64,000 nt of DNA from Oceaniovalibus sp. ACAM 378. GTDB taxonomy: Bacteria; Pseudomonadota; Alphaproteobacteria; Rhodobacterales; Rhodobacteraceae. The DNA lies in NCBI RefSeq assembly GCF_008085915.1, contig NZ_VSJK01000004.1:186001-250000 (forward strand). The letters run 5' to 3'. Shown here one piece after another: positions 24,301-49,888 of this stretch (positions within the stretch are counted from its first letter, which is position 1; each line of letters starts with the position of its first letter). The notes below the pieces were generated by a model. It searched no databases and was not told the origin of the DNA. It was given only the letters and a program-made list of their open reading frames with translations. A program made the translations under genes and the position numbers.

Positions 24301-25888
24301 CACCTATCTGGCCGAAACCCGTGATCTGGCGCGCGACATCGCCCGCGAACCGATGAAGGATTACCTGCGCAGCGCGGCGGGCCTGATCAAGCAATACGCC
24401 TGGGCCTTTCCCGCCTTCAAACGTCCCGCAGGCGTGACCAACCCGTTTGAGGTGGATCTGGGCGGATTGGCCGAGGAGGAGCTGGAGGCGATCCTTGATT
24501 TCGCATTTCAGCGGTATTTCGACGACTCAGGAATGTTTGGCACCGTGGATGATGCGGTAGCCCGGGCGGAACAGTTGAAAAAGATCGGCGTGGATGAAAT
24601 CGCCTGTCTGATCGACTATGGCATCGCGCCGGGTGTCGTGATGGAGGGTTTGAAACCGCTGGCCGAGGCGTTGAAGCGCGCCAATGCCGGATGGACCCCT
24701 GCCGAGGATGATTTTTCCATCGCCGCACAGATCCGCCGCCACGGGGTCACACATCTGCAATGCACGCCGTCGATGGCGCGGATGATCGCGATGAACGACG
24801 ACGCGCGCAGCGCATTGTCGCGGGTGCAAACGCTAATGGTCGGCGGCGAAGCTCTGTCCGGCGATCTGGTGAAATCGCTGCAATCCGCGTCTGGCGCGAC
24901 GATCCTGAACATGTATGGCCCCACCGAAACGACCATCTGGTCCACTGTGCAGCCCGTCACTGATGCCGCGCCCGATGTGCAATCCATTGGCACGCCGATC
25001 GCGAACACGCGGGTATATGTGCTGGATTCCGAGAGAAATCCGGTGCCCCTCGGGGTTGCAGGCGAGTTGGTGATCGCGGGCGAAGGCGTCGCGCGCGGGT
25101 ACTGGCAGCAGGATGCAATGACCGCAGAGCGTTTTGCGCCAGACCCGTTCGGCAGTGGCCGCATGTACCGCACCGGCGATCTGGTCCGCTGGCGGATCGA
25201 CGGCAGTCTGGATTTTCTCGGCCGCACCGATCATCAGGTCAAAATTCGCGGGCACCGGATTGAACTGGGCGAAATCGAAGCCCGGCTGGCCGAACATCCG
25301 GCGGTCAAACAGGCGGTGGTCATTTCGAGGAATATGGGCGGCGATACACGGCTGGTGGCCTATGTCATCGCCGATCCGGCGCTGTCGGACAAAGCCATGC
25401 GCGCGCAGCTTTCTTCCCTGCCTGACATCATGATCCCCGCGCATCTGGTGGTGCTGGACCGTTTCCCCCTGACCCCGAACAAGAAGGTAGATCGCAACGC
25501 CCTGCCCGAGCCGAAATCGCCGCGATCCGTCCGGGCTGCCAATATTGCCGCCGCGCCTGCGAATGAAACAGAAACAGCGATCGCCGCATTGTGGCAGCGG
25601 ATTCTCGGGGTCGGCGACATCCGTCCCGACGACAACTTCTTTACCCTTGGCGGTCACTCCCTGCTGGCAGTTCAGGCGCACCGCGAGTTGAAAGAGGCAC
25701 TGGCAGCACCGCGCCTGTCGATCACCGACATCTTCCGCTTTCCCACCCTCTCGGCGCTGGCCGCCCATGTGGACGCAGGCAAGGGGCGCGAAACGCCACC
25801 GGTTGACGCCACCGCCCCCGAGGGCGACACAAGGGCCGACACCATGTCGCGCCGGCGCGCGATGCGGGCTGAACGCGGAGCACGCTGA
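21359..25888 (+). CDS. NRPS initiation-type protein: formyltransferase, adenylation domain with inserted luciferase-like monooxygenase, PCP
   Basis: Encodes 1509 residues. Residues 1-210 are a formyltransferase fold with the catalytic triad Asn90, His92 (NFHDGPLP) and Asp128 (GIDEGD), followed by an FMT-C-like segment to about 310. Residues 330-500 resemble a worn condensation-domain remnant without HHxxxDG. The adenylation domain begins near 520 (core YTSGSTGLPKGV). After the FDISVLELFW region it is interrupted at about 750-1110 by a luciferase-like FMN monooxygenase (DGVGPKKYELLLEGAKFAD, GFNAVWTPERHFHAFGG), then resumes (HGVTHLQCTPSM, NMYGPTETT, YRTGD, K in NKKVDRN). A carrier domain ends it (Ser1434 in LGGHSL). 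The insert fits the MupA/Atu3671-type family. No thioesterase. Confidence 0.93.
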   Translation: MTQFSAVLIGGESLLIACGDMLLSRGHRIAAVVSRDADIAGWAEKHAIACVRRPADLTDAIGPFDWLLSIANLSLIPGAVLAMPAKGAVNFHDGPLPAMAGLNTPAWARMLGHGQHGVTWHVIEGGIDEGDILEQREFDIAPEDTAFSLNSKAYAAAMESFPALVAQLETGLNRQPQDLTTRRYFARDDRPAGGGFIDPAGSVMDAVALIRGLDFGGYRNPLTRAKLATPRLPLLIGSVADSTETGTPGTVMSNADGTITLAFADGALVLSGLTGPLGETVDIASLVKVGDRLSAPDVQSAATLASLASGDGYWRGRLVAANPLPMPLAGRLGTPDWTNRPLSLPALSAVETIAVVGQWALLSSGEASGDIGYSSAALAAHVKAAPGLIATTAFLRVTRGDLPATITAIEPQLDRIAKTPGFARDLFTRDPDIAFNRPGVAISEVGPVYGTPLTLTLGDTPTLHWDRDRLSDDAAALLATRLEHLAVELAAGRPSALPASETALFDGWNATQTDHDRALTIHAAFEAQVAKTPDATALVFESEILSYAALNTAANRMAHVLRDMGVGPGSNVGICVRRSPDLLIGTLAILKAGGAYVPLDPAYPADRIAHFVQDSGAQVIVAQPELITALPASNAKVLATNDPRIAGADASNPTGGAAPEDLAYLIYTSGSTGLPKGVMIEHRNVANFFTGMDQRIDHTAGAVWLGVTSLSFDISVLELFWTLARGFKLILSSDENRALIAGDTPAVSDRHIDFNLFYWGNDDGVGPKKYELLLEGAKFADTHGFNAVWTPERHFHAFGGPYPNPSVTGAAVAAVTQNLSVRAGSCVAPLHHPARIAEEWAVIDNLTNGRTGLAIASGWQPDDFVLMPENTPPANKPAMFAAIETLRKLWRGEAVEFPRADGTPLAVVTQPRPVSAVLPIWVTTAGNPDTWREAGSIGANVLTHLLGQSVDEVAGKITLYHEALRAAGHDPADHKVTLMLHTYLAETRDLARDIAREPMKDYLRSAAGLIKQYAWAFPAFKRPAGVTNPFEVDLGGLAEEELEAILDFAFQRYFDDSGMFGTVDDAVARAEQLKKIGVDEIACLIDYGIAPGVVMEGLKPLAEALKRANAGWTPAEDDFSIAAQIRRHGVTHLQCTPSMARMIAMNDDARSALSRVQTLMVGGEALSGDLVKSLQSASGATILNMYGPTETTIWSTVQPVTDAAPDVQSIGTPIANTRVYVLDSERNPVPLGVAGELVIAGEGVARGYWQQDAMTAERFAPDPFGSGRMYRTGDLVRWRIDGSLDFLGRTDHQVKIRGHRIELGEIEARLAEHPAVKQAVVISRNMGGDTRLVAYVIADPALSDKAMRAQLSSLPDIMIPAHLVVLDRFPLTPNKKVDRNALPEPKSPRSVRAANIAAAPANETETAIAALWQRILGVGDIRPDDNFFTLGGHSLLAVQAHRELKEALAAPRLSITDIFRFPTLSALAAHVDAGKGRETPPVDATAPEGDTRADTMSRRRAMRAERGAR

Positions 25889-25892
25889 CCAT

Positions 25893-26615
25893 ATGATCCC
25901 AATGTCGAAAATTGCCGCCCACGAGGGCCCGGTATCGGGTGCCATGGTCGATCCCCATGCGCGTGGCTTGTTCGATGCCGATATCGCGCTGGCGCTGTGT
26001 GATCCCCGTGCGCCATTGGGCGGGTTGCTCAGCCCCGAACGGGCCGGCATGGGCCGCATGGTCGACAAGCGGCAGCGCGAATTCACCGCCGGGCGGGTGG
26101 CGGCACACCGGGCGATGGCCGAGCTGGGCTATCCGGCGCAACCGGTTCTACCGGGTGCCGACCGCGCGCCGATCTGGCCCGACGGCCTGATGGGCAGCCT
26201 GTCGCACTGTGATTCCCTGTGTATCTGCGCCATGGGCCGGTCGCGCGATGTGCAATCGCTGGGTGTTGACGTCGAAGAGGACGCGCCGCTGGACGCCGAG
26301 TTGTTCGATGCCATCCTTACCCCGCCCGAACGCAATTGGCTGGATAATCAGCCCGCCGACGAGATGGGCCGGTTGGCGCGTCTGCTGTTCAGCGCGAAAG
26401 AGACGGCCTACAAGGCGCAATACCCCCTGAGCCGGACCGTGTTGGACTTTGAGTCCATTTCCATCGAACTTGTCCTTGAAACAGGGCGTTACGATGCGAT
26501 CTTCATGCACTCCGTCGGCCCTTTCGCAACCGGAACACGGCTGTCGGGGCGGTTCGTTCGTGCGCAGGGCCTGATCCTGACCGGGATCACCCTGCGCCGT
26601 CGTCCCGGCGGCTGA
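25893..26615 (+). CDS. 4'-phosphopantetheinyl transferase (EntD/Sfp superfamily)
   Basis: Encodes 240 residues. Diagnostic motifs are GSLSHCDSLC, SLGVDVEEDAPL (magnesium-binding Asp) and FSAKETAYKAQYP (W/FxxKE..K). It transfers phosphopantetheine from CoA to carrier-protein serines, here most likely Ser1784 of the PKS and Ser1434 of the NRPS. ATG 25893 begins four bases after the NRPS stop; the longer frame from 25767 would overlap the NRPS gene heavily and is unlikely. The EntD-like form with the SHC motif is common in siderophore and natural-product clusters of proteobacteria. Confidence 0.93.
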   Translation: MIPMSKIAAHEGPVSGAMVDPHARGLFDADIALALCDPRAPLGGLLSPERAGMGRMVDKRQREFTAGRVAAHRAMAELGYPAQPVLPGADRAPIWPDGLMGSLSHCDSLCICAMGRSRDVQSLGVDVEEDAPLDAELFDAILTPPERNWLDNQPADEMGRLARLLFSAKETAYKAQYPLSRTVLDFESISIELVLETGRYDAIFMHSVGPFATGTRLSGRFVRAQGLILTGITLRRRPGG

Positions 26616-36297: not shown

Positions 36298-37071
36298 TCA
36301 GTATCCCGTTTGCCGCATCATGACCCCCACGGTACGCATCATCACCCCCAGATCGCCCAGCAACGACAGCGACCGATTGTATTGCGCATCGATCTCGGCG
36401 CGGAAGGAAAAGTGGTTCTCATTGCGCGCCGACACCTGCCAGAACCCTGTGATTCCCGGGCGCAGGGCAAAATAATTCTGCGGATCGCCATACATGCTCA
36501 ATTGATCGGGCATCATCGGACGCGGGCCAACCAGGCTCATCTCGCCGGTCAGGACGTTCCAGAACTGCGGCAACTCATCCAGCGAGGTCTTGCGCAAAAG
36601 ATTTCCCACAGCGGTGACGCGCGGATCTTTTTTCAGTTTCTGGGTCGTGGCCCATTCGTGCGCCAAGGCCGGATCGCTGTCCAGATAGCGCTGCAGCACG
36701 GTGTCTGCATCGCGCACCATTGTTCGCAGCTTGAGGATCGAGAACCGTTCGCCACGTGCGCCCAGACGGATCTGGCGATAGAACGGCTGCCCGCCTTCAA
36801 ACAACAGGGCCAAGGCGCACAGTCCGACAATCACCACGGTCAGCGGCAGGCTCAGCAGTACCAGAAAAACATCGAGAAGCCGCTTGCCGATATGACGATA
36901 CAGCCATGGCAACTTGCCCGACGGCAGGGTCTCGGCCTTCTTCGGGTTGGACGGGGGCGAGTTTCCTTGGTGTCCCGAGCCAAACAGCGACATCACCAAC
37001 CCATTATGGTCAGCGATAACGCCATCGCTCAGGGAGGCGATGTTTGCGTCTTCGTACAATTGGTCTTTCAC
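36298..37071 (-). CDS. undecaprenyl-phosphate sugar-phosphate transferase (WbaP/ExoY-type)
   Basis: Encodes about 257 residues. After a variable head, a membrane helix ([20 protein letters not shown]) is followed by the polyprenyl-phosphate hexose-1-phosphate transferase core: [52 protein letters not shown] and [14 protein letters not shown]. This enzyme starts repeat-unit assembly on the lipid carrier. GTG 37071 is chosen because GGGAG lies nine bases upstream; ATG 36993 and a start at 37200 are also in frame. It is transcribed leftward from the long gap before the acidic repeat gene. Confidence 0.93.
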
Positions 37072-38134
37072 CCCAAGACACTCCCAAATTCTACGTGGCA
37101 GCCCCAAGGGCACATCACGGGTGCGTCGCAGCGCAATACGCGCCCGGGTTTCCGCCGCACCACGCGGAACTCCGGTCATTTCGGGCAGCCCCCCGTGCAA
37201 GCAGCAGGGTCATCCGGAAAAGACGGCCGTCAGGTCGCCCTTGATCATGTATGTGGCCAACCCTCGGGCTTTTTCAGCAAATTCGACGAAAACAGATTGT
37301 TTCCGCCCTATTAGCACCAATGAACCCAATAAACCTATTGGAAGGTAAGCATTTAATCTATTCCGGCAACAATCCCTTAAGAGGATCCACCGGCTGTTTC
37401 CAATTCAAATCGGCCCCGTCAGAAAGGTGACGGAACCACCCCGCCTACTCGGTCTATTCTGTCGGACCGACACCTTGGCGAGACGTACAATGTGTTTCCC
37501 AGATCTACAACGTGGCGGTTAAAAGGCCAACTGCGGAACACGGTCCAAGGCCTCAGATGACGCTGCGGAACTGTGGTGAAAAACCTGCCGTTTCGCGCCC
37601 CCCGATCCCACCAGAACTAGTGTATTTGGTCAGGCTTCAGTGAAACAACCAGTCAGATCAGATGGCGCGCTAACGGTGCAAAAATGGATCGCCGGCAGAA
37701 AGGACAATCTTCCTGACGCATTCGACTCAGCGGCGGCAGAACTGGACAGTTGGACGTCGCGAAAGGTTTCAAGACGCGATTACGGGTCGTTCACAACCGA
37801 CTGTTTAATTTAGATTTTTTCTGTCAAGTGCGGATTTCCCGCCGTCAGATTCAGGTGCAAAAACCCACTCGATCCTTGACACAACGTTGACCAAAGGCGC
37901 AGGTTAGAGCCGTCATTTACCAGTATCGACCGACCGCTTTTTTCAGCGACGCACTCGGCCGTACTTTTTTTAATACGAAAATTTTTCTGGGATCGGCCCA
38001 GTGAGGCGATGATCTGCCCGATACGCCCCGGTTACGGGGATGCAGAGACACCGGCCTCCTCCACTCCCTCATTTTCATAGCAACAGAATTGCGTGGCGCG
38101 ACGATGTCACGCTTTCCGGAAAAGGAATTTTCAA
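37072..38134. other. long intergenic region before the acidic repeat gene
   Basis: About one kilobase without a supportable gene, divergent between the sugar-phosphate transferase and the acidic repeat protein. Base composition becomes noticeably AT-rich toward 37790-38000, with T-runs and a GTAC-T7-AATAC stretch. A TTGACA sequence at 37876-37881 is a possible -35 element, but no convincing -10 follows at the right distance. Room exists for complex regulation or a small RNA, but none can be recognised. Confidence 0.45.
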
Positions 38135-40240
38135 ATGACTTCCCGACTCATCCCCGACTCCATCCATTTTGAAACCATCCTCGACGCGGCGCTTTCCGCC
38201 GTTCTGGACCATGGCAGCCTGACCGCGCCGGTCAGCTTTGCCCCCAATGACGAAGGCAACGAAGGCGACGAAGGTAACGAGGGCAACGAAGGCGACGAGC
38301 GCGGCGCCGACGAAGGCAACGAGGGCAATGAAGGCAACGAAAGTGACGAAGGCAACGAAGGTGGCCTGGATGAAGGCAATGAGGGCAATGAATCCGGCCC
38401 GAACGACGAAGGCAACGAAAGCGACGAAGGTAATGAGGGCAACGAAGGCGACGAACGCGGCGTAGATGAAGGCAACGAAGGTAACGAAGGCAACGAAGGT
38501 AACGAGGGCAATGAGGGCGGCCTGGATGAAGGCAACGAAGGTAACGAAGGCCAGGAAGGCAATGAGGGCGACGAAGGCAACGAAGACGACGAAGGAGACG
38601 AGAACGACGAAGGCGATGAAGGTGACGAACTGGACGAGGGCGACGAAGGTAACGAGGGCGACGAAGGCAACGAAGGCGACGAAGCCAATGAGGGCAACGA
38701 GCTAGACGAAGGTAACGAAGGCAACGAGGCCGACGAAGGCGACGAAAACAACGAAGGCACCGAGGGCGACGAAGGTAACGAAGGCGACGAAGGCAACGAG
38801 GGATTCGAGAACGACGAAGGCAACGAGGCCGACGAAGACGACGAAGGTAACGAAGGCAACGAGACCAACTCGGAGTTCAACGGCGCCGACGACGAAGGTG
38901 ACGAAGGTCAGGAAGGCAGCGAAGGCGACGAAGAATTCGCAATCTCTGACGAAGACGACGAAGGCAATGAAGGCGACGAAGCCAACGAGGGCAATGAAGA
39001 CGACGAAGCCAACGAAGGTGACGAAGGCAACGAAGGCCAAGAGGGCGACGAAGGCCAGGAGGGTGACGAGGGCAACGAAGGCGATGAGATCCCCGACGTG
39101 ATCTTCGAAATCGGCGCCGACGAAGGCAATGAAGGCGATGAGGGCGACGAAGGTAACGAGGGTGACGAAGGCGACGAAGGTAACGAGAACGACGAAGGCA
39201 ACGAAGCCGACGAAGCCAACGAAGGTGATGAAAACGACGAGTTGAACGACGGCGACGAAGGCAACGAGAACAACGAAGGCGACGAAGGTAACGAGGGCGG
39301 CGAAGGCAACGAAGGCGACGAAGACAACGAAGGCTTCGAAGGCGACGAAGGTGACGAGGGTAACGAAGGTAACGAAGGCGTCGAAGGCGACGAAAACGAC
39401 GAGAACAACGAAGGTAACGAAGGCAACGAATCCGCCACCCAATACGTCGATGACGTCGTCGGAAACGGCTTCGAAGGCGACGAAGGCGACGAAAACGACG
39501 AAGGTAACGAAGGCACTGAAGGCGACGAAGGCAACGAGAACGACGAAGGTAACGAAGGCGACGAGATCCCCGACATCATTATCGAAATCGGCGGCGATGA
39601 AGGCAATGAAGGCAACGAAGGAGATGAAGGCAACGAGGGTGACGAAGCCAACGAAGGCAACGAGAACGATGAAGGCAATGAGAACGATGAAGGCAACGAA
39701 GGCAACGAAGTGATCATCGACCTCGACACCTTTGGCTTCAACGAAGGCGACGAAGGCAACGAAAACAACGAAGGAAACGAAGGCGACGAGTTCGACGAAG
39801 GCGACGAAAACAACGAAGGAAATGAAGGCAACGAAGGCGACGAAGGCGACGAGAACGACGAAGGAAATGAAGGAGACGAAGACAATCAGGGCAATGAAGG
39901 CGACGAAGGAAACGAATTCTTCCCGACCATCGGTGACGAAGGCGATGAAGGCAACGAGAACAACGAGAACGACGAAGGCGATGAAGGGAACGAAGGAGAC
40001 GAGGGCGTAGAAGGTAACGAAGCCAACGAAAACAACGAAGACAATGAAGGCGACGAAAACGACGAAGCCAACGAGAACGACGAAGGCGACGAAGGTGACG
40101 AAGCCGACGAAGGCGATGAAGGAGAGGAAGGCGACGAGAGCAACGAAGGTGACGAAAACGACGAGAACGACGAAGGTGACGAAGACAACGAAAACGATGA
40201 AGGAGATGAGGGAGACGAGGGTGATGAAGGCTACGATTGA
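38135..40240 (+). CDS. extremely acidic Asx-Glu-Gly triplet-repeat protein
   Basis: Encodes 701 residues, family unrecognised. Residues 1-38 are ordinary (MTSRLIPDSIHFETILDAAL and on) without a Sec signal. From residue 39 to the end nearly every triplet is Asp/Asn-Glu-Gly, with Glu almost invariant at position two and Gly, Ala, Asn, Asp or Gln at three. The repeats are interrupted by short hydrophobic islands, two of them similar (IPDVIFEIG and IPDIIIEIG), plus VIIDLDTFGF, ATQYVDDVVGNGF and FFPTIG. No Lys, Cys or Trp is present, and only three Arg. It should be disordered or calcium-folded and hugely negative. AAAGGA precedes the ATG, and a terminator follows the stop. Export by the nearby type I system is an inference. 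Confidence 0.85.
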   Translation: MTSRLIPDSIHFETILDAALSAVLDHGSLTAPVSFAPNDEGNEGDEGNEGNEGDERGADEGNEGNEGNESDEGNEGGLDEGNEGNESGPNDEGNESDEGNEGNEGDERGVDEGNEGNEGNEGNEGNEGGLDEGNEGNEGQEGNEGDEGNEDDEGDENDEGDEGDELDEGDEGNEGDEGNEGDEANEGNELDEGNEGNEADEGDENNEGTEGDEGNEGDEGNEGFENDEGNEADEDDEGNEGNETNSEFNGADDEGDEGQEGSEGDEEFAISDEDDEGNEGDEANEGNEDDEANEGDEGNEGQEGDEGQEGDEGNEGDEIPDVIFEIGADEGNEGDEGDEGNEGDEGDEGNENDEGNEADEANEGDENDELNDGDEGNENNEGDEGNEGGEGNEGDEDNEGFEGDEGDEGNEGNEGVEGDENDENNEGNEGNESATQYVDDVVGNGFEGDEGDENDEGNEGTEGDEGNENDEGNEGDEIPDIIIEIGGDEGNEGNEGDEGNEGDEANEGNENDEGNENDEGNEGNEVIIDLDTFGFNEGDEGNENNEGNEGDEFDEGDENNEGNEGNEGDEGDENDEGNEGDEDNQGNEGDEGNEFFPTIGDEGDEGNENNENDEGDEGNEGDEGVEGNEANENNEDNEGDENDEANENDEGDEGDEADEGDEGEEGDESNEGDENDENDEGDEDNENDEGDEGDEGDEGYD
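38249..40237 (+). repeat. 9-base periodic repeat encoding Asx-Glu-Gly triplets
   Basis: The unit is GAC/AAC-GAA/GAG-GGC/GGT with synonymous drift, running for almost 2 kb with a few non-repeat islands. It is coding: the frame is open throughout and third positions vary. It is not a CRISPR array, because there are no constant repeats with unique spacers. Confidence 0.9.
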
Positions 40241-40281
40241 TGCCTTGATCCTGTCCTGATCCGATTGTGATCGTGACATCT

Positions 40282-40308
40282 GGCCGCGCCTCAGGGCGCG
40301 GCCATTTT
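40282..40308 (+). terminator. rho-independent terminator of the acidic repeat gene
   Basis: Stem GGCCGCGCC (40282-40290) / GGCGCGGCC (40295-40303), four-base loop, then ATTTTA. It lies 42 bases after the stop, so the acidic repeat gene is probably a single-gene transcript. Confidence 0.88.
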
Positions 40309-40379
40309 ACGTTACCCCATGATTTTCTTGAACTTACCCATCCGGCACCGCATCCGGCGCGCTGTACCGGTGATTCAGG

Positions 40380-41069
40380 TCAGCCCTTGTCCGACAGGAT
40401 CGCCACAAGTTCAGCTGTTGAAATCCGCCCCGAAAACAGATCGTCAATCTGCACCGCGCCGGGATGCGTGGCGGCCGATCGGGCGAGACTCCGCGCAAAG
40501 GGATAATTGACGTCATAGTCATAGGCGGCGCGTTCGGGCGTACGCAGGCGGTCCAGCCACATTGCGCCGTCGGATTGGACCGCCCCCTCTGGCGGCAGGC
40601 CCGCCATACAGTGGATTTCGGCCAGAAAGGCACAGGTTTCACGCAGGATCGGCGGCATGAAACGGCCCTCACTTGCCACCAGCTGCCATGCGTGGCCGAA
40701 TTCATGGGCCAGTGCGCGCTGGTCGGCCACCCTTCCCCGCCAGACAACAGACACGAACGGTCGCCCGTCGCCAATGTCGGCAATCGTGAAGGGGCGGGGA
40801 TATTTCACCGGATCGGGATCAAACCGGGTCAGGGTGCGTGCGGTGGTGGCGCGGATCGTCGCGGCGCAATCGGGTTGCCAGCGACACAGGGCCTCGGCAA
40901 TCGCGGCCCAGTTGCAGTCTGGCCCCTTCCCCACCGCAGGAAGTGCCACGGCATTCGCGCCGTCCCGCCCCGGTTTCAGGTCAAGGATCGCGCGGCAGAT
41001 CGGCGGCGTGATGCCATGCAGGTCCAGCCACGCGGACAGCATCGTGCCGGTCGCCCCGCCCTCGCTCAA
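40380..41069 (-). CDS. HExxH zinc metallopeptidase-like protein
   Basis: Encodes 229 residues. The zinc-binding helix is ALAHEFGHAWQ (HEFGH), with a possible downstream third ligand in the ETCAFLAEIH region. There is no clear signal peptide from the TTG start that overlaps the upstream gene (TTGA); an internal ATG at 41042 is also possible. It is translationally coupled to the second HExxH protein, suggesting a functional pair. The family is not recognised further. Its position next to the acidic repeat protein (convergent, 70 bases after that gene's terminator) makes a processing role thinkable but unproven. Confidence 0.65.
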   Translation of the reverse strand: MSEGGATGTMLSAWLDLHGITPPICRAILDLKPGRDGANAVALPAVGKGPDCNWAAIAEALCRWQPDCAATIRATTARTLTRFDPDPVKYPRPFTIADIGDGRPFVSVVWRGRVADQRALAHEFGHAWQLVASEGRFMPPILRETCAFLAEIHCMAGLPPEGAVQSDGAMWLDRLRTPERAAYDYDVNYPFARSLARSAATHPGAVQIDDLFSGRISTAELVAILSDKG

Positions 41070-41860
41070 GGACAGGCAAACGGATCAGAAACGGAATGAA
41101 CAAGCGGGCGGTCCACCGGCAACAGCCCGGCAACATATTCGATACGATGAGGCACCGCATTGCGCGTTGCCGCTGTATCGGCGGGCGGAAAGCGATCGGG
41201 GTGATGCAGGAGGGCAAAGGCAAACAGCGCGGTTTCGGCGAGGTCCTCACGCTCGGGGGAATTTTGGCCATATTCGGTCAGGAACATCCCGTCCGCCTGT
41301 TGCGCCGCAATCCATCCCGCGGACAGCCGATAATCGGCATCCCAGGACGCATGAACCGCTTCGTGAAACAGCGATTCTTCAAGGTGATCATAGTCCAGCC
41401 GGTTGTCAGTGGTTTCGGCATAGACGACGATCTGTCCGGTTCCGGCATGAAATCCCGCGCGCCCGGCATGAACACTGAACCTGTCGATCCCTTCGCGCAG
41501 TGGTGTGGGCAATTGGCCAAGGGGTGCGGCGTACCGCTCGGCCTCGGCCAAAGCTGCGTCGCCGAACTCGGGATTGATCGCGATTTCGATGTTCGTGCCG
41601 TCGGAATAATGCGCGTCGAACAGAAAGGCATCGATCACCGGTTCGTCCTCGATACGTTTATCCCAGATCTGACGCTCTCCCCGTCCGGAGGGGACCAGAC
41701 AGGTCAAGGTCGTCGGATCACTGGTGCGGATGATGTCAAATACGGTTCCCGCCGTATCGCTGAACGGCGGATCTGATTGCCCATTTTGTGAAGCCGCGAT
41801 CTGTGGCGCGGCTAGCACAACAAGCGCTGTGGCAATTCGGCAAAGACTGTTGGACATCAT
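41066..41860 (-). CDS. exported HExxH metallopeptidase-like protein
   Basis: Encodes 264 residues beginning MMSNSLCRIATALVVLAAPQ, a Sec signal peptide with likely cleavage after IAAS or nearby. The mature part contains LEESLFHEAVHASWD (HEAVH zinc-binding helix) followed by ETALFAFALLHHPDRF, which may supply the third ligand. No known family is assigned with certainty. The longer frame from 41998 would prepend an unlikely Gly/Pro-rich stretch. First gene of a two-gene operon with the other HExxH protein; its stop overlaps that start. Predicted periplasmic or secreted. Confidence 0.7.
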   Translation of the reverse strand: MMSNSLCRIATALVVLAAPQIAASQNGQSDPPFSDTAGTVFDIIRTSDPTTLTCLVPSGRGERQIWDKRIEDEPVIDAFLFDAHYSDGTNIEIAINPEFGDAALAEAERYAAPLGQLPTPLREGIDRFSVHAGRAGFHAGTGQIVVYAETTDNRLDYDHLEESLFHEAVHASWDADYRLSAGWIAAQQADGMFLTEYGQNSPEREDLAETALFAFALLHHPDRFPPADTAATRNAVPHRIEYVAGLLPVDRPLVHSVSDPFACP

Positions 41861-42216
41861 GCAATCCGCTTCGGTCAAATGGGTTGGTGCGCCAGCCCGA
41901 GACGCATCCGATCGGCCCGGCGCGTTAAGAATGCTGTATGGTGCCCCGCCCGACCCTGCCTGCCAAGGAATTTCTGGCGCCCCTGACCCACCCGGCAATC
42001 GCTTGCCGCCATTACATTCACACCGTCCTTAAACGCAGCGGCGAATCACCATTCACAAAGTTCTGACGCAGTCAAGTCATGTCAGAAATACTTGTGAGAT
42101 TACGTGGGGGAATGTTACCCTTAACCCATTGTTAGAGGATTTTGTTCGTCAACAGTCATTTCGCGTAGCGGGTAAGGCCGCCGTCAGGACGCGCTGTTTC
42201 ATAAGAAGGAAAAGCC
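41861..42216. other. divergent promoter region between peptidase operon and oxygenase gene
   Basis: There are 356 bases without a gene. It holds an operator-like dyad at 42061-42087 and an AT-richer part around 42090-42150, where promoters for both directions may lie. Confidence 0.5.
42061..42087. promoter_or_regulatory. operator-like dyad TTCTGAC-N13-GTCAGAA
   Basis: A perfect seven-base inverted repeat with arms at 42061-42067 and 42081-42087. It is located 130 bases upstream of the oxygenase start and 200 bases upstream of the divergent peptidase start. The spacing would suit a dimeric regulator. No regulator can be named. Confidence 0.35.
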
Positions 42217-42861
42217 ATGGGATCCGAGGATTTCAAGTTCACCCGACGCACCTATTTTCCCACCACGATCTTCCAGATCGATGTCCCCGAGCCAGAGCCG
42301 TTGAACGAGGCACTCCTGTCCAACATCTATGCCGAGCGCGAGCGGGACAGTAAGGGGATCAGCCGGTCCAATTTCACCGAGCTAGGCGGCTGGCACAGCC
42401 ATAACAACCTGCACAAAGATAAGGAATATTCCGATCTGACCAAGCTGATCGGTGACGCCACTGCCCGGATGAGCGAGGACATGGGATATGCCAGTTCCCA
42501 CAAGATCACCATCGGCACCATGTGGTCGATCATCAACCCACCCGGCAGTGCGAACCGTGCCCATGTTCACCCCGGCTGCCTGTGGAGCGGCGTCTATTAT
42601 ATTCAGGCGCCCGAAGGCGCTGGCAACATCGAGTTCGTCGAACCGCGCACGATGAATCTGATGAACCAACCCAGATTCAAGCCCAACTCGAAACGGCAAA
42701 AAGAATACTGGACCAAGGTGCGGTTCACCCCGATGGCGGGCCGGATGCTGGTTTTTCCAAGCTGGCTGTACCATGCGGTCGATCCGAACATCACCAAGAA
42801 AACCGGCGACGCGGCCAACCGGATCATCGTCAGTTTCAATCTGAACCAGGTCAAAGCCTGA
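42217..42861 (+). CDS. 2OG-Fe(II) oxygenase-like protein (TIGR02466-type)
   Basis: Encodes 214 residues. Visible signature: SIINPPGSANRAHVHPGCLWSG-type core (AHVHPG, then WSGVYYIQAPEGAG), and later MLVFPSWLYHAVDPN with Arg in NRIIVSFN, giving His, His and Arg positions of the jelly-roll iron/2-oxoglutarate fold. Family members are uncharacterised or presumed hydroxylases. ATG 42217 is preceded by AAGGAAAAG. It lies 154 bases ahead of the second type I secretion pair in the same direction, so it may modify an exported substrate before secretion. Hydroxylation of Asp/Asn or Pro is possible by analogy only. Confidence 0.8.
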   Translation: MGSEDFKFTRRTYFPTTIFQIDVPEPEPLNEALLSNIYAERERDSKGISRSNFTELGGWHSHNNLHKDKEYSDLTKLIGDATARMSEDMGYASSHKITIGTMWSIINPPGSANRAHVHPGCLWSGVYYIQAPEGAGNIEFVEPRTMNLMNQPRFKPNSKRQKEYWTKVRFTPMAGRMLVFPSWLYHAVDPNITKKTGDAANRIIVSFNLNQVKA

Positions 42862-43015
42862 CCGGATCCTGACCCGACGCGCCCCCGTGCGCGCAGCATT
42901 CGGACGGGTGAAATCCATCGACGATGGAAATGCCGGAACAATCGTTTGGTCCGCCGCACCGCTGGCGCACCGCGACCCGGCCCAAGCAAACCCGTAAACG
43001 GGTGAAAGCGAGCAC

Positions 43016-44800
43016 ATGATGGCCAAAGGCGACCTGAGCGGATCGGCCCGGCTGGCGATGCGGCAGGGCGGGATGATCCTGTCGTCCACATTCGTGCTCA
43101 GTTTCGTGGTGAATGCGCTGCGGTTGGCCGGGCCGATGTTCATGATCCTGATCTATGACCGGGTTCTGACGTCGCGGTCGCAGGAAACGCTGGTGTCGCT
43201 ATTTGTCATGGTCGCCACACTGATGCTGGTGCTGGGGATGCTCGAATACACCCGCAAACGGCTGATCGCCCGGTTTGCCGCGCAATTTCAAGAGCGTATG
43301 GAAGGCACGATCCTGCGTTCGGCGTCGCAGAACGACATGTTCGCCACCGGCAAGGCGAAACCTGCAACCGGCCTTGACGAAGTCGATTCCCTGCGCGGGT
43401 TCATTCACTCCGGCTCGCTTCTGGCGGTGTTCGATTTCATCTGGGCGCCAATGTTCATCGCGGTCGTGTTCATCCTGCATCCGGTACTGGGCTGGATCTG
43501 CCTTGGCGGCATGGCGATCATGCTGTTGCTCGTGACGATCCGCATGACCTTCATGGGTGGGCGCGAAGAACGTGCCACAGCCGCAGGCGGAGCAATCGCC
43601 GAGATGAAGAACATGGTCGTCGCATCGCGCGATGTCGTGCGATCGCAGGAAATGAACGCAGGGTTCAAGCAACGCTGGATATCCCGCCGCAGCACCTCCC
43701 GGGACGAAGCGATTGCACTGCGCGACTGGACCGGCTGGTTCGATGGGATGTCGTCGACCATGGTGATGCTGGTGCGCTATTCCGTACTGGCCGCCGGGGC
43801 CTATCTGACGCTGCAAGGGCAGTTGACGGTGGGGGCGATGGTGGCCTGCACGTTTCTGGTGACCCGGGTTTTAAGCCCGGTGAGCCGGTTCCTGAATGAA
43901 ATCCCCAATATCCGCAAGGCAATGGACAACTGGGCCCGGCTGAACCGCATTCTGGCCTCGCGCGACGCCGTGACCGCTGATGTTTTCCCCGACGAGATCG
44001 GCAAGGCGCGCGCGCGGCTGGATCTGTCGAAGGTTGCCGTGCGTTCGCCGATCACCGGCAGTTCGATCCTCAAGACGGTTGATCTGACGATGGCCCCGGG
44101 CACGATGGTTGAAATCCTCGGGAACAGCGGCAAGGGCAAGACAGTGCTGGCCGAAACCATCCTCGGGATCTGGAAACGCAGCGCCGGCGCGGTTCTGGTC
44201 GACGGGGTGAACGTCGCCCGCATGAGCGATGAACAGACCGCCGGAATCTTTGGCTATGCGCCTGAGAATGCGACATTCATTGCGGGCACACTGGCCGAAA
44301 ACATATCGCGCCTCGACCCTGAGATAACGCCCGAAAAGGTGATATCGGCCACCAAACGCGCCTGCCTGCACGGCATCATCACCGCCTTGCCCGATGGCTA
44401 TGACACCGTGATCGACAGCGCCGCAAGCTGTCTGTCACGCGGGCAGCGCCACCAACTGTCGATGGCCCGGGCAATCTATAACGATCCGCTTGTTCTGGTG
44501 GTGGATGAACCCGACACAATGCTGCTGGACCGTCTGCCAAAGACGATCGAAGCCACCTTCAACGGTATTCTTGACCGCGGCGGCGTGATTGTTCTGATGG
44601 CGCGCAAGCCACTGAACCTGCCGCAGGCCCGGGTGCAGATGAAACTGGCCAATGGTGTCCTGACCCAGATCGGCAAGATTTCGGCAAGGGAGGCAGCCGG
44701 CAGAAAAACCATCTCGGACAAGGTGACCGTGCTGAACGGAAATTCCACAGGCTCACCTCATAAAACCGGCACCCTTCAGCAGAATGCAGCGAGGGGTTAG
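43016..44800 (+). CDS. divergent type I secretion ABC transporter/permease
   Basis: Encodes 594 residues with the same layout as the transporter at 1976: membrane domain (about 20-300), then ABC domain. Walker A is intact (GNSGKGKT, Lys375) and Walker B keeps VLVVDEPD. Several motifs are changed: Q-loop GYAPE instead of GYLPQ, signature LSRGQ instead of LSGGQ, H-loop MARKP with Arg530 in place of the switch His, and an altered D-loop (TMLLD). The C-terminus carries about 40 extra polar residues. It may hydrolyse ATP slowly or work with a different partner. The membrane fusion gene follows after three bases. Confidence 0.9.
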   Translation: MMAKGDLSGSARLAMRQGGMILSSTFVLSFVVNALRLAGPMFMILIYDRVLTSRSQETLVSLFVMVATLMLVLGMLEYTRKRLIARFAAQFQERMEGTILRSASQNDMFATGKAKPATGLDEVDSLRGFIHSGSLLAVFDFIWAPMFIAVVFILHPVLGWICLGGMAIMLLLVTIRMTFMGGREERATAAGGAIAEMKNMVVASRDVVRSQEMNAGFKQRWISRRSTSRDEAIALRDWTGWFDGMSSTMVMLVRYSVLAAGAYLTLQGQLTVGAMVACTFLVTRVLSPVSRFLNEIPNIRKAMDNWARLNRILASRDAVTADVFPDEIGKARARLDLSKVAVRSPITGSSILKTVDLTMAPGTMVEILGNSGKGKTVLAETILGIWKRSAGAVLVDGVNVARMSDEQTAGIFGYAPENATFIAGTLAENISRLDPEITPEKVISATKRACLHGIITALPDGYDTVIDSAASCLSRGQRHQLSMARAIYNDPLVLVVDEPDTMLLDRLPKTIEATFNGILDRGGVIVLMARKPLNLPQARVQMKLANGVLTQIGKISAREAAGRKTISDKVTVLNGNSTGSPHKTGTLQQNAARG

Positions 44801-44803
44801 GCG

Positions 44804-46117
44804 ATGGCACCGCAGAACCGAAATCGCCGCACCTGGAGCAACCACCGACCGATGACCGTCGGCCTGTTGTCCGCGCTGCTGCTGATCGGCGGGCTGGCCG
44901 TCTGGTCGGTCAAAGCCAATATCTCGGGCGCGGTGATCGGCAAGGGCGCGATCGAGATGTCGACGGTAATGACAACCTTGCAACACCCCATCGGCGGTGT
45001 GGTCAAAGAGATCATCGCCGACAGCGGAGACAGGGTTGCGGCGGGCGATATCGTCGTGCGGCTGGACGACTGGCAATTGCTTTCTGATTTGAAAGTCGTC
45101 GAGGGTGACCTGTTCGAAGCATTGGCCAATATCGCCCGGCTGACGGCGGTGATTGATGAACGCACAAAGCTGGAATTGCATCCGCTGCTGGCCGAAGCTG
45201 CGGCGACGCGCCCGGCCATAGCGGCGATTGTGGGTCGCAATACCCGACAACTGGCGGCCCATTACGACACTCTGGAAACCGAACGGCGGCTGCTGGACGA
45301 GCAGAAAAAACAAATCGAATCGCAACTTGCCGGACTTCAGTCGCAACTTGCCGCCAAACAGGACGAAAAGCTGGTTCTCGGGCAGGAACTGACCAAGGCG
45401 CGGGGGCTTGAAAAAAAGCGTCTCATCAAAGCGTCCGAGATGTTTTCTCTGGAAAAGCAGGATGTTGCGGTCAGGGGCGAATTGGGGAAACTGAAGGCAA
45501 ACATGGCCGAACTGCGCGGCAAGATCAGCGAACTCGAGTTGAAACGCCACCTTGTCGTCCCCAACGCCCTTGAGGAAGCGGTCGAGGAACTGAGCAAATT
45601 GCGCCCCGAACGCACCCGCCAACTGGAACGCCGGGCCAGCTTGCTCGACAGTCTTGGAAAACTGGACATCCGCGCGCCGGTCAGCGGCAAGATCCACGAC
45701 TCACGAGTGCAGGGCCTGCGCAGCGTTGTTGTGGCGGCCAGCCCGCTGATGATGATCGTTCCCGACGGAGAGCCGGTCATCGTCAACGTGCGGATCTTTT
45801 CGACCGATATCGATCAGGTGCACGTCGGGCAGGATGCATCGCTGAAATTCTCGGCCTTCAACCGGCGGCGCATCCCGATTATTCTGGGTCAGGTGTCGCA
45901 GATTTCTGCCGACGCATTTTTGGACCCCACGACACGAAAAAGTTACTATGACGTTGAAATCATCCTTATGGACAACGAAATGGAGAAACTGGGCGGTCGT
46001 GACCTGTTGCCCGGAATGCCGGTCGAAGCGTTTCTTTCCACCGAGAGCCGCACCCCGCTGAACTATGTCCTGAAACCGCTGATGAGCTATTTTGATCGCG
46101 CGTTCCGCGACGCCTGA
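44804..46117 (+). CDS. HlyD-family membrane fusion protein, second type I system
   Basis: Encodes 437 residues: a basic head ([12 protein letters not shown]), one membrane segment (about 20-38, [16 protein letters not shown]), lipoyl half ([15 protein letters not shown]), long coiled coil (about 90-290), second lipoyl half ([14 protein letters not shown]) and a beta-barrel region ending [14 protein letters not shown], as in PrtE-type proteins. It pairs with the divergent transporter directly upstream; no outer-membrane channel gene is nearby. Paralogous to the protein encoded at 3718. Confidence 0.92.
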
Positions 46118-46241
46118 GCAGGCAAGCGTTGGCATCATTTCGGGCGGCTTCCTGCCCATGGCGCGAAACTTGGCGACGACAGGCAAATTCCGCTGTTCGG
46201 CCCCCCTTGCGACTCGGGCGGGCACGGGCCACAACCGGCAT

Positions 46242-47288
46242 ATGGCAACAGGCACACTTCATATCGATCTCGACGCGTTGGTCGCCAATTGGCGGGCGCT
46301 GAATGCATTGTCCGGACCGGGCGTCGAAACCGCCGCGGTGGTCAAGGCTGACGGTTACGGATTGGGCGCGGGCCGTGTCGCGCGCGCCCTGTCACGCGCC
46401 GGGGTGCGGCGCTTTTTTGTCGCCGTCGCCGAAGAGGGCGCGGCACTGCGGCAGGAATTGGGACCAGACCCCGAAATCTGCGTCTTTTCCGGCCATATGC
46501 CGGGCGACGGTGACATCCTGCACGATCTGACCCTGACGCCCATGTTGAACTCGATCGAACAGCTGACGCGGCACTTTGAATCCCTGCCCGGTCACCGGTT
46601 CGGCGTACAGCTGGACACCGGGATGAATCGGCTCGGGCTGGAACCGACAGAATGGGAAGCAGCCTGCCCGATCGTCATGGCCCAGGCGCCCCGCCTGCTG
46701 ATCAGTCATTTGGCCTGTGCCGACGACCCCGAAGATCCGATGAACGGCGCGCAGCTGAACGCATTCCGCGACATGACCGACGGGTTGAACGTGCCGCGTT
46801 CCCTGTCCGGAACGGGCGGTATCCTGTTGGGGCCTGAGTATCATTTCGACGTGACCCGTCCGGGCATCGGAATGTATGGCGGCGCCCCGTTCACCGATGC
46901 GACTCCCGTGGTCCGCCTGTCGATTCCGGTGATTCAGACGCGTGATGTGGCTCCGGGCGAAACCGTCGGTTATGGCGCGTCCTGGACTGCCGAGGACGCG
47001 TCGGTGATCGCCACTCTGTCCGCCGGATATGCCGACGGACTGATCCGCGCCATGGGCGACGACGCGGTCCTGTTCGCCGAAGAGACCCCCTGCCCTCTGG
47101 CCGGGCGGGTTTCGATGGATCTTTTGACCGTCGATATCAGTCATCTGACCCGTGTGCCCGCGCAGCTTGATATCCTGTGCAATCAACAGACCATCGACGA
47201 TCTGGCGGCGGCGGCAGGCACCATCGGTTACGAAATTCTGACCTCTCTTGGCACGCGTTATAACCGGCGTTATGCGGGCAGCGCCTGA
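46242..47288 (+). CDS. alr: alanine racemase
   Basis: Encodes 348 residues. The pyridoxal-phosphate lysine is in [10 protein letters not shown] (about residue 34), with family segments [33 protein letters not shown] and [12 protein letters not shown], and the catalytic Tyr in VGYGASW. It makes D-alanine for peptidoglycan in the cytoplasm. ATG 46242 starts the conserved region directly ([13 protein letters not shown]); the frame from 46092 extends into the secretion gene and is rejected. It marks the return to core chromosome after the accessory block. Confidence 0.96.
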
Positions 47289-47434
47289 GCGATTTGATCG
47301 CCGCGCGGTGCGAAACAGTCAGACCGATTTTCTCTCACTTTCGACCAATAACTGCCTTATTCTGCTGATAATTTCCGTCTAACTTGACACACTGACCACA
47401 GGCCGCTGTTTTTGGACTGGGTCAGTATGGGTGC

Positions 47435-48280
47435 ATGTGGATGGGTAAGAGTATGGATCGATTGACGCTGCCGCCGTTTTCCGGCGTTGGGATGGTTGGG
47501 ATGATTGCGCAGTCTGTTGCACTGGCTGCGATTGCGGTGCTTGGGGCTGTGATGGGCGGGGTGACGCTTTTATCGCTGACCGGCGTTCTTCCCTGGCTGG
47601 AAATCGAGGCTGGTTTTGGCGGCGTGTCCCTGCCTTGGGCCGGGATTGCATTGCAGTCAATATTTACAGTGTTTTGTATCAGCCTGTGCTTTTTCCTGCC
47701 GGCAAATCGCAGGATTCTCAAACTCGAACAAAGCCACCGCGACTTTCACGTCAACATGGAAGACGTGGCGCGCGCCTATCGCGTCAGCCACGCTGCCGAC
47801 CGGACCGGGCTGTTTCGCGCGGCGTCGGAATTCGATTCGGTGCGCGAGCGGATCAACCACCTGCGCAACCATCCCGACCTTGGCGCGCTGGAACCCGGCG
47901 TGATGGAGGTGGCCGCACAGATGAGCCACGAGGCCCGCGAACTGGCCGGGGTCTATTCTGACGACAAGGTCCAGCGGGCCCGCGAATTCCTGCGCCACAG
48001 GCAGGAAGAGGCGGCGCGGATGCAAGAAACCATCGGTTTGGCGCGCGACACTTGCAGCCAGTTGCAGCACTGGCTGCTTGAGGTCCAGACGGAAGAAGCG
48101 CTGGTCAAACGGCACCTGTCGCGGCTTGAGAAAGACCTGCTGGAACTGATGCCCAAGCTGGGTTTCGAAATGTCGATCGAGGACCAGCCGCGCGGCGACA
48201 CCGTGGTTCCGCTGAACCGGCCGAGGAGCGAACAGGCGACGCGCCAGTTGGCCCCGCCCCGCCCGGTCAACGAAAGCTGA
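47435..48280 (+). CDS. membrane-anchored coiled-coil protein of unknown function
   Basis: Encodes 281 residues. Two hydrophobic segments lie at about 22-48 and 66-90 (the second FTVFCISLCFFLPA), then a soluble, helix-rich, charged region (about 95-245) with coiled-coil character (REFLRHRQEEAARMQE) and a Pro-rich tail. No enzyme motif. It sits between alr and radA, a position where Rhodobacterales often carry a conserved hypothetical. Starts at 47441 or 47453 are equally possible. Confidence 0.7.
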   Translation: MWMGKSMDRLTLPPFSGVGMVGMIAQSVALAAIAVLGAVMGGVTLLSLTGVLPWLEIEAGFGGVSLPWAGIALQSIFTVFCISLCFFLPANRRILKLEQSHRDFHVNMEDVARAYRVSHAADRTGLFRAASEFDSVRERINHLRNHPDLGALEPGVMEVAAQMSHEARELAGVYSDDKVQRAREFLRHRQEEAARMQETIGLARDTCSQLQHWLLEVQTEEALVKRHLSRLEKDLLELMPKLGFEMSIEDQPRGDTVVPLNRPRSEQATRQLAPPRPVNES

Positions 48281-48523
48281 ATCGCACTCGGCCCCCGAAC
48301 TGCCTTTGATACGGATCTTGCAACATCGATCCCGAATCGCGTCGCTGTCAGGTGCCAGTTCAGGCCGGCAAGGCTCGGCGCGACGTCGTGTTCGATCTGA
48401 CGCACAGCTTTCGGCCCCTCGGTTCAGCCGGAAACGCTGCGGCAATGTCCCATCAAGCCTCGCGATCATGCCGACCGCACAACCCGGCCTTGCGCCCGCG
48501 CGCGGCGGACGGCAAAAGGCGGC

Positions 48524-49888
48524 ATGGCGAAGACTCCTTCATTCTCATGCAATGCCTGCGGCGCGGTCCATAACAAATGGTCCGGGCGCTGTGATGCTTG
48601 TGGCGCATGGAATTCGATCGTCGAAGACGTGCCGATTTCCACTGGCCCGACCGCTCAGTCACTAGGCGCGAAAAAGGGCCGTCGCATCGCGTTGAGCGAT
48701 CTGGCAGGCGAAGAAGCTCCGCCGCCACGCAAAGCCAGCGGGATCGGCGAACTTGACCGGGTGCTCGGCGGTGGTCTGGTGCCCGCCTCGGCGATCCTTG
48801 TGGGCGGTGACCCCGGTATCGGCAAATCGACGCTGTTGTTGCAGGCTGCGGCCAGTTTTGCGCGCGCCGGTCTGTCCGCAGTCTATGTCAGCGGCGAAGA
48901 AGCCACGGCGCAGGTGCGGATGCGCGCGCAGCGGTTGGAGCTGACGGATGCGCCGGTGCGGCTGGCAGCGGAAACCAACCTGCGTGACATCCTGACGATG
49001 CTTGAGGCGGAAAAGCCCGATGTCGCAATCATCGATTCAATTCAGACCATGTGGAGCGACCAGGTGAGCAGCGCGCCGGGATCGGTCAGTCAGGTGCGCG
49101 CGGCAGCCCATGAGTTGACGACATTCGCCAAACGCCATGGAGTCGCGGTGATTCTTGTGGGCCATGTGACGAAGGACGGCCAGATTGCCGGGCCGCGCGT
49201 GGTGGAACACATGGTCGACACCGTACTGTATTTCGAGGGCGAGCGCGGCCACCAGTTCCGCATTCTGCGCGCCGTCAAGAACCGGTTCGGTCCGGCAGAT
49301 GAGATCGGCGTGTTCGAGATGACCGGCGAAGGTCTGGCCGAGGTGACGAACCCTTCGGCCCTGTTCCTGTCGGACCGTGAAGATCCGGCGCCGGGATCCG
49401 TGGTGTTCGCGGGGATCGAGGGCACCCGCCCGGTTCTGTGCGAATTTCAGGCGCTGGTCGCCCCCACCCCCCATTCGCAACCCCGCCGCTCGACCGTCGG
49501 TTGGGACGGGGGCAGGCTGGCGATGATTCTGGCCGTTCTCGAAGCGCGCTGTGCCGTGCCCTTTGCCGGGATGGATGTGTATCTGAATGTGGCTGGTGGG
49601 CTGCGGGTAAGCGAACCTGCCGCCGATCTTGCCGTTGCGATGGCCCTGCTCAGCGCGCGCGAAGATATCGCTCTGCCGCCGCAATCGGTGGTTTTCGGGG
49701 AAATAAGTCTCAGTGGTGCCCTGCGTCCGGTCAGTCAGACCGAAAACAGGTTGAAAGAGGCGCAGAAACTTGGTTTCACCGCAGCCATCGCGCCCGAGCG
49801 CAGCAAAATGACAACAACCGCCGGTCTGGCGATGCGGCAGTACCGCGATCTGACCGGTCTGGTGGGCGATATGTTCGGAGCGGGCTGA
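48524..49888 (+). CDS. radA: DNA repair protein RadA/Sms
   Basis: Encodes 454 residues, standard length. N-terminal four-cysteine zinc finger (CNACGAVHNKWSGRCDACG), RecA-like ATPase with Walker A GGDPGIGKST and Walker B VAIIDSIQTM, the RadA-specific KNRFG motif, and a C-terminal Lon-protease-like domain with the conserved GGLRVSEPAADLAVA segment. It helps process recombination intermediates and branch migration. ATG 48524 precedes the zinc finger directly. Confidence 0.98.
   Translation: MAKTPSFSCNACGAVHNKWSGRCDACGAWNSIVEDVPISTGPTAQSLGAKKGRRIALSDLAGEEAPPPRKASGIGELDRVLGGGLVPASAILVGGDPGIGKSTLLLQAAASFARAGLSAVYVSGEEATAQVRMRAQRLELTDAPVRLAAETNLRDILTMLEAEKPDVAIIDSIQTMWSDQVSSAPGSVSQVRAAAHELTTFAKRHGVAVILVGHVTKDGQIAGPRVVEHMVDTVLYFEGERGHQFRILRAVKNRFGPADEIGVFEMTGEGLAEVTNPSALFLSDREDPAPGSVVFAGIEGTRPVLCEFQALVAPTPHSQPRRSTVGWDGGRLAMILAVLEARCAVPFAGMDVYLNVAGGLRVSEPAADLAVAMALLSAREDIALPPQSVVFGEISLSGALRPVSQTENRLKEAQKLGFTAAIAPERSKMTTTAGLAMRQYRDLTGLVGDMFGAG

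Follow-up and report, generated by a model that had tools for sequence, protein, structure and literature searches.

A candidate RiPP-like secreted polyanion: an Asx-Glu-X triplet-repeat protein linked to a TIGR02466 oxygenase in Oceaniovalibus and its relatives

Collagen is a secreted triplet-repeat polymer that is paired with a prolyl hydroxylase, and AspH-type β-hydroxylation of EGF domains accepts Asp as well as Asn at one position. Among bacterial ribosomally synthesized and post-translationally modified peptides (RiPPs), the closest described parallels are those with α-ketoglutarate-dependent hydroxylases (the HExxH enzymes ChlB, PosC/PflC), and the report on them also describes other RiPP enzymes that hydroxylate runs of consecutive identical residues (PMC12636437), which provides a precedent. 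Here we analyzed a stretch of 64,000 nucleotides from Oceaniovalibus sp. ACAM 378 (contig NZ_VSJK01000004.1, positions 186,001 to 250,000), referred to as the window, which encodes a 701-residue protein composed largely of Asx-Glu-X triplets close to a gene for a 2-oxoglutarate (2OG)-Fe(II) oxygenase-family protein, in the following termed OG. Sequence and gene neighbourhood suggest that the locus produces a RiPP-like secreted polyanion that probably undergoes hydroxylation of its Asp and Asn residues ahead of type I export.

With the hydroxylase-containing RiPPs (PMC12636437), the locus shares an encoded precursor, a leader-like head and linked oxygenase-family, peptidase-like and export genes. 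It differs in that the precursors are hundreds to thousands of residues long with about 200 candidate sites in the window protein, in that the oxygenase belongs to TIGR02466, in that loci of the window's type (type A, see below) carry a type I secretion pair, and in that the modification is predicted. Two hallmarks of RiPPs were found, namely a leader-like head (with a pattern of its own in type A and of GG type in type B) and genes for putative modifying enzymes linked to the precursor. The system appears to behave like a RiPP, although its membership hinges on the predicted modification of the core; it is possible that it represents a kind of ribosomal, modified and exported polypeptide that forms its own class. 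Searches of the literature, judged from listings and titles, returned nothing on a triplet-repeat/oxygenase system.

The first-pass annotation of this DNA had proposed a 701-residue Asx-Glu-Gly triplet protein with only three Arg and no Lys, Cys or Trp. The open reading frame (ORF) is real and contains no internal stop, and the composition agrees (202 Glu, 154 Gly, 117 Asp, 115 Asn, 3 Arg, and neither Lys, Cys nor Trp). After the head, about 200 triplets follow, and the protein carries about 320 carboxylates and a net charge of some −316, which bears out its description as a polyanion. Of the 201 intervals between successive Glu residues, 180 have a spacing of three. Asp or Asn precedes Glu in 182 of 202 cases and Gly follows it in 137, so that the formula Asx-Glu-X fits 182 of the 202 triplets and Asx-Glu-Gly 124; the Asx-Glu part of the proposed unit therefore stood, while Gly proved to be its least fixed position. 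A Shine-Dalgarno-like AAAGGA was seen by eye upstream of the start codon. Long ORFs in other frames, among them minus-strand ORFs of 249, 525 and 325 residues, are shadows of the repeat. A microsatellite at the level of the DNA was rejected, as Tandem Repeats Finder reported only 64-65% matches at periods of 9 and 18 bp.

The likeness to collagen had been called superficial, and our data agree. A triplet polymer, a hydroxylase-family gene and predicted secretion are common to both systems, and the Pfam model Collagen (PF01391) matches the window protein with 84.8 bits (cut-off 27.2), as do NCBIfam Scl/Lcl models below their cut-offs. Yet the longest uninterrupted run with Gly at every third position has a length of 8, only 7 of the 701 residues are Pro (3 of these within the head), and the invariant residue is Glu after Asx rather than Gly, which follows Glu in just 62% of 8401 triplets from the family described below. 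The PF01391 match looks like a low-complexity effect and was therefore discounted, and a collagen-like triple-helical protein is extremely unlikely. A glycine-based helix, which had also been considered, is disfavoured by the conservation of Gly, which reaches just 62% in the family. All matches of the whole-protein scan were to such collagen-type models and lay inside the repeat; none fell on the head, to which the first-pass annotation had pointed as the place to look for a known family. Automatic annotation is liable to label proteins of this kind collagen-like.

A scan of contigs with the window protein as query yielded 38 repeat loci. These are mostly from Rhodobacteraceae or its genera, and the rest include Mesorhizobium, Shinella, Sphingomicrobium, unplaced proteobacteria and one planctomycete; a plasmid collection searched with the same query gave no match. 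The earlier statement that no family resembles the protein thus holds for curated families, none of which fits in Pfam and NCBIfam scans, but not for relatives as such. In the 38 loci plus the window (39 proteins), the 8401 in-register Glu residues are preceded by Asp in 56% or Asn in 41% of cases (97% together), and a site with Glu at both −3 and +3 is itself Glu in 97.3% of 7315 cases. At the third base of these Glu codons, A and G are used freely (4628 and 2491 times, respectively). Because Glu and Asx are constrained while third codon bases are not, we conclude that selection acts at the protein level on the Asx-Glu pair. Before Glu, Asp and Asn interchange, whereas Glu, Gln and Ser each make up at most 0.5%. 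Precursor length varies widely among the relatives (for example 487 residues in L014 and 2465 in L021, measured from stop to stop), as might be expected of a neutral repeat expansion without a dedicated function. The strong constraint on Glu and Asx at free third codon positions, together with the conservation of head pattern and neighbours in Rhodobacteraceae, Mesorhizobium and Shinella, renders such an expansion very unlikely.

The relatives fall into three architectures. Type A, to which the window protein belongs, consists of a short head followed by triplets up to the C-terminal end. The pattern [AS]x[VIL]SF, located at the end of the head, is present in 16 of 16 type-A heads (the window and 15 loci, picked by eye), while a type-A relative found later (L122) lacks it. 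Type B combines a head with a GG motif (e.g. ITGGMPVPDPAQ), the triplets and a Cys-containing tail (CGADACAIDAGG...GADLAGG...). In type C, the triplets are embedded in larger proteins. L123 encodes two of these, L120 has one, whose repeat is short, and in that of L124 the repeat follows a putative Ig domain (Pfam He_PIG). Cultured relatives that hold the cluster include Pseudoponticoccus marisrubri (type A) and Sedimentitalea arenosa (type B). Some type-B precursors (L004, L010, L023 and L026) have an extra N-terminal region starting with MQFID, for which no Pfam match above cut-off was obtained in L010.

Each of the three architectures was seen beside a cluster-type OG. Among the 38 loci, OG was detected near the repeat in 17, the ATP-binding cassette (ABC) exporter gene in 12, HlyD in 11, and the genes for the two HExxH proteins pepB and pepA in 12 and 8, respectively; these counts refer to 6-kb flanks, and many loci are cut by the ends of flanks or contigs. 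In L009 and L013, OG lies just beyond the fetched flank, and by coordinates the same applies to L029. At the level of genomes, TIGR02466 was found in 26 of 27 searched repeat-holding genomes, housekeeping copies counted, compared to 2 of 14 control genomes.

Many of the repeat-holding genomes have a housekeeping copy as well. In order to separate the housekeeping copies, a profile built from cluster oxygenases (A3) was run over 394 genomes of Rhodobacteraceae, nearly one per genus. The scores were bimodal, with 19 genomes at 229-411 bits and all others at 112 bits or less. The window protein as query matched 18 of the 394 genomes, of which 11 were strong (E ≤ 1e-18, identity ≥ 60%) and 7 weaker. 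All 11 strong-repeat genomes were among the 19 with a cluster-type OG (hypergeometric 1e-16, uncorrected for kinship), and in 10 of the 11, OG and a repeat are no more than 20 kb apart (the window, L022, assigned to G037 by matching coordinates, L068, L069, L073, L074 and L122-L125). The repeat of L069 is short, type-B-like and not confined to a single reading frame, and in G286 the repeats sit elsewhere in the genome than OG. Among the other eight OG-positive genomes, a short repeat is present in G203, at a distance of about 1 kb from OG. By contrast, none of the 7 weaker-match genomes has a cluster-type OG. Their matches were set aside as His-Glu-Gly repeats (G081, G130 and G404), a Pro-Thr-Glu repeat (G265), a GPEGPEG stretch (G072), a short Asp-Glu-Ala run (G121) and a sequence in which no triplet repeat was seen (G058). 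Since G081, G130 and G404 are without a cluster-type OG, Glu-Gly triplets with His in place of Asx do not bring the oxygenase with them, and neither does the Pro-Thr-Glu repeat of G265.

The cluster OGs are also a group apart. In a phylogenetic tree, they are split from the housekeeping paralogues by one branch (support 98/94). Of 29 cluster-clade OGs (28 distinct), 27 are net positive, with charges of +2 to +11, and all 23 that have a repeat at the same locus range from +2 to +9. The 19 housekeeping paralogues have net charges of −4 to −20; a housekeeping row with a two-residue extraction artefact (L134) was omitted from the tree and the counts but is still contained in the means and the rank test. 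The two deepest OGs of the cluster clade (L118 and L121) have charges of −4 and 0, respectively, and their fetched stretches contain no repeat. Basic cluster OGs are what one would expect given the charge of some −316 on the putative substrate chain. His116, His118, His186 and Arg202 are invariant in 16 rows, and the same pattern of HxH, His186 and Arg202 occurs in 3bvc and 2rg4, two relatives of solved structure that are uncharacterised.

These findings lead us to propose that the head and the roughly 200 triplets are the precursor of an enzymatically modified secreted polyanion. As the association of the two genes suggests, OG would modify the repeat in the cytoplasm, perhaps with the head as its recognition element. 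Hydroxylation of the Asp/Asn side chain would be the likeliest chemistry, since the invariant position accepts Asp and Asn alike but hardly ever Glu, Gln or Ser. AspH-type modification is similar in that Asp or Asn is accepted at one position, but the window protein has no Cys and hence no EGF fold. The M3-like pepB may trim the head, and the gene content points to export of the chain by a PrtD-like ABC protein and HlyD, presumably with a TolC-type channel encoded elsewhere; pepA, if exported, could act outside the cytoplasm. Once outside, the chain, possibly with many hydroxyls, might serve as a soluble or matrix-bound ligand of calcium or other metal ions. An extracellular role had been put forward in the first-pass annotation and is consistent with the adjoining type I exporter; the calcium binding and mineral shaping suggested in that annotation are conceivable tasks of the chain. 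That annotation had overlooked the neighbouring genes, chiefly OG, the presence of which suggests a modified, exported product.

More tentatively, the system could constitute a new class of genetically encoded polyelectrolyte with chains from several hundred to more than two thousand residues. In these, a dedicated TIGR02466 oxygenase of positive charge would hydroxylate hundreds of Asx side chains, and the exported chain would act as a multidentate Fe(III)/Ca(II) ligand, in analogy to collagen and prolyl hydroxylase. If true, TIGR02466/PF13759 would gain a substrate and, as far as our searches show, a first function, and an enzymatically decorated, secreted acidic biopolymer would exist patchily in Rhodobacteraceae (OG clade in 19 of 394 genomes) as well as in Mesorhizobium, Shinella and a planctomycete.

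Several observations weigh against the proposed hydroxylation of a secreted repeat. The case is drawn from sequence and gene context, and both the gene product and its modification are predictions; that OG uses iron and 2OG is an assumption based on the name of its family, and the choice of the modified residue is likewise a guess. OG carries HxH and not the HxD/E motif, and no functional assignment of TIGR02466/PF13759 was found in the literature, judged from listings. With respect to the association, two loci outside the sample of 394 genomes argue against a universal link: the genome of L035 is without TIGR02466 (the single miss of the 27), and in that of L036 the surroundings of OG are free of repeats out to about 9 kb. 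Many type-B precursors are distant from any OG. Moreover, 7 of the 19 OG-positive genomes have no visible repeat. These are two incomplete metagenome-assembled genomes (G251 and G151, 75-78% complete), one with a 10-kb contig (G411), one with an apparently decayed cluster (G246), one in which the OG reading frame is split (G343) and the two with the most divergent OGs (G099 and G348). The lines at 229 bits and 1e-18 were set after the scores were known, and G081 falls just outside the strong line (8.5e-18, 52% identity, His-Glu-Gly repeat); G121, with its short Asp-Glu-Ala run but no cluster-type OG, is a minor exception among the Asx-containing repeats. Positive charge (+4 to +11) is also found for the OGs of L070, L071, L075 and L117, loci whose fetched stretches lack a repeat, even though repeats are located elsewhere in the genome of L070, and L118 sits on a long branch in the OG tree.

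Table 1 Features of the repeat locus (positions within the window)
Feature	Position	Strand	Remarks
Asx-Glu-X triplet-repeat protein, 701 residues	38135..40240	+	ATG at 38135, TGA ending at 40240; uninterrupted ORF
Non-repeat head, residues 1-37	38135..38245	+	Candidate leader; ends ...LTAPVSFAPN
Hydrophobic island IPDVIFEIG	39089..39115	+	
Hydrophobic island IPDIIIEIG	39566..39592	+	
Terminator-like hairpin	40281..40304	+	10 pairs (9 G-C), then TTTTACGTTA; directly after the stop of the repeat gene
pepB, HEFGH protein	40380..41069	-	M3/oligoendopeptidase-F-like domain of reduced size; visual inspection showed no signal peptide
pepA, HEAVH protein	41066..41860	-	Hydrophobic, signal-peptide-like N-terminus (by eye); ORF open upstream to 41998
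OG, 2OG-Fe(II) oxygenase family	42217..42861	+	TIGR02466, 240.6 bits (cut-off 62.5); PF13759 (2OG-FeII_Oxy_5), 81.3 bits (cut-off 27)
Type I secretion ABC permease/ATPase, PrtD-like	43016..44800	+	374.3 bits (below the curated cut-off of 510.15)
HlyD-type periplasmic adaptor	44804..46117	+	TIGR01843, 306.9 bits (cut-off 208.65)

The features of the locus are compiled in Table 1. The stop of pepA and the start of pepB overlap by four bases, and 9 terminator-like sites were observed in the region compared to 9.6 expected from shuffles. That the PrtD-like ABC protein and HlyD adjoin the repeat gene raises the question of whether the protein is an unmodified, RTX-like type I substrate, with triplets that remain unfolded in the cytoplasm, where calcium is low, and bind it once outside, while OG acts elsewhere in the pathway. 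Acidic, Gly-rich repeats are common to both, and the repeats of L123 occur in proteins whose C-terminal part has many DxDxDG-like stretches. The repeat unit is three residues here as opposed to the RTX nonapeptide, and membership in the RTX family was rejected, as PF00353 gave no match on the window protein at E ≤ 1 (Pfam). Furthermore, OG accompanies the repeat in all three architectures, even where the window's PrtD/HlyD pair was not detected nearby (types B and C and L038), and its positive charge parallels a polyanionic substrate. We therefore consider an unmodified RTX-like substrate rather unlikely.

Two further observations stand beside this comparison. The window itself encodes an RTX protein of 693 residues with 18 nonapeptide-repeat stretches (5383-7464). 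In L123 (9045-19499), two Asx-Glu-Gly repeat proteins share DxDxDG-rich C-terminal parts and flank an ORF (13009-14568) in which a pepB-like stretch is fused to a HlyC acyltransferase-family domain.

Of the two HExxH proteins, pepB is most likely a cut-down M3 peptidase, as judged from profile and structure comparisons. Its AlphaFold2 model is confident (pLDDT 88.6), and a Foldseek search listed M3 peptidases first (E 0.02-0.04), besides many ACE2 entries and an αKG-dependent HExxH domain (8s5f, E 0.1), with nothing at or below 0.001. In profile searches, 11 of 13 members touched the M3 model TIGR02290 (best 9.9e-8), while the window pepB itself is weak (TIGR02290 E 0.011, pepF 0.0037); the best PDB profile was 3ce2 at 8e-5. 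It was detected in type A, L122 excepted, and in L123 within the larger ORF with the HlyC domain. Its target is perhaps the head, a role that fits because pepB is absent from the clusters in which a C39 peptidase was found. For pepA, sequence profile searches gave no family, the model is weaker (pLDDT 69.5) and the fold search produced no convincing match. In each of the 8 other genomes that have them, strong pepA relatives are located next to a cluster OG, and pepA adjoins OG in L069-L075. Of 14 distant relatives, 12 were fetched (L076-L087), none of which lies beside a cluster-type OG or a repeat, and L082 has the housekeeping-type paralogue; that of G070 is found just past the HlyD gene of a type-A cluster (L125), and the remaining one is in G203. 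HExxH enzymes that hydroxylate rather than cleave exist in RiPP pathways (PMC12636437), and by analogy a role as hydroxylase instead of peptidase is possible for pepA or pepB.

The two HExxH proteins also bear on the idea that the repeat protein is a polyprotein cut into many short acidic peptides as the actual product, either through hydroxylation of the backbone or Gly by OG or through cleavage at the hydrophobic islands by pepA and pepB. HExxH enzymes of other RiPP clusters carry out oxidative backbone cleavage (PMC12636437). Both islands named in the first-pass annotation are present (Table 1), and relative L007 has similar ones (LDFIFEIG and LDFIVEIG). In the window protein, however, the islands are few and irregularly placed, and Gly is the least conserved position of the triplet and Asx-Glu the most (62% and 97%, respectively), which makes a polyprotein quite improbable.

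In the type-B neighbourhood, the genes for the precursor and OG are accompanied by those for a radical SAM/SPASM protein, a C39 peptidase protein, a HlyD-like protein, a protein whose weak likeness to CPBP stays under cut-off, and one more conserved protein. It resembles the TIGR04463 radical SAM/SPASM maturase system in that a related radical SAM protein stands beside a Cys-tailed precursor, a likeness restricted to type-B clusters. All seven scanned type-B radical SAM proteins scored 476-486 bits, below the cut-off of 525, and no radical SAM family was found among the nine window neighbours scanned (36298-49885); membership in this system was therefore rejected for the window. A search of the literature for TIGR04463 found nothing. 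The C39-domain protein of type B (L019:8474-13123 and equivalents) has 600 residues and no recognised ABC domain, and together with the 535-residue HlyD-like protein (assigned by eye, without a Pfam match) it possibly forms an unusual exporter.

Some further repeat proteins were noted in the course of the survey. The His-Glu-Gly repeats of L098 and L103 adjoin YTCPMHPE metal-binding-like stretches (L098, L101 and L103 correspond to G081, G130 and G404). A PAP2-superfamily protein with an Asn-Arg-Gly run after SPLSF or SGLSF is encoded in L002 (1279-2268; in its own genome on C34 near 301475) and L003 (853-1854). The SPLSF/SGLSF element resembles the type-A head and the next gene in L002 appears subtilase-like by eye, so that these proteins may belong to a related modified-repeat system.

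Elsewhere in the window, positions 13936-26615 encode a polyketide synthase (2144 residues), a glycosyltransferase, a phosphopantetheinyl transferase and a 1509-residue protein that combines formyltransferase, AMP-binding and luciferase-like monooxygenase domains, with polysaccharide-type genes further on. A perfect 10-bp tandem repeat, ACCGCAAGTG, is present in 3.6 copies at 58558-58593 (Tandem Repeats Finder).

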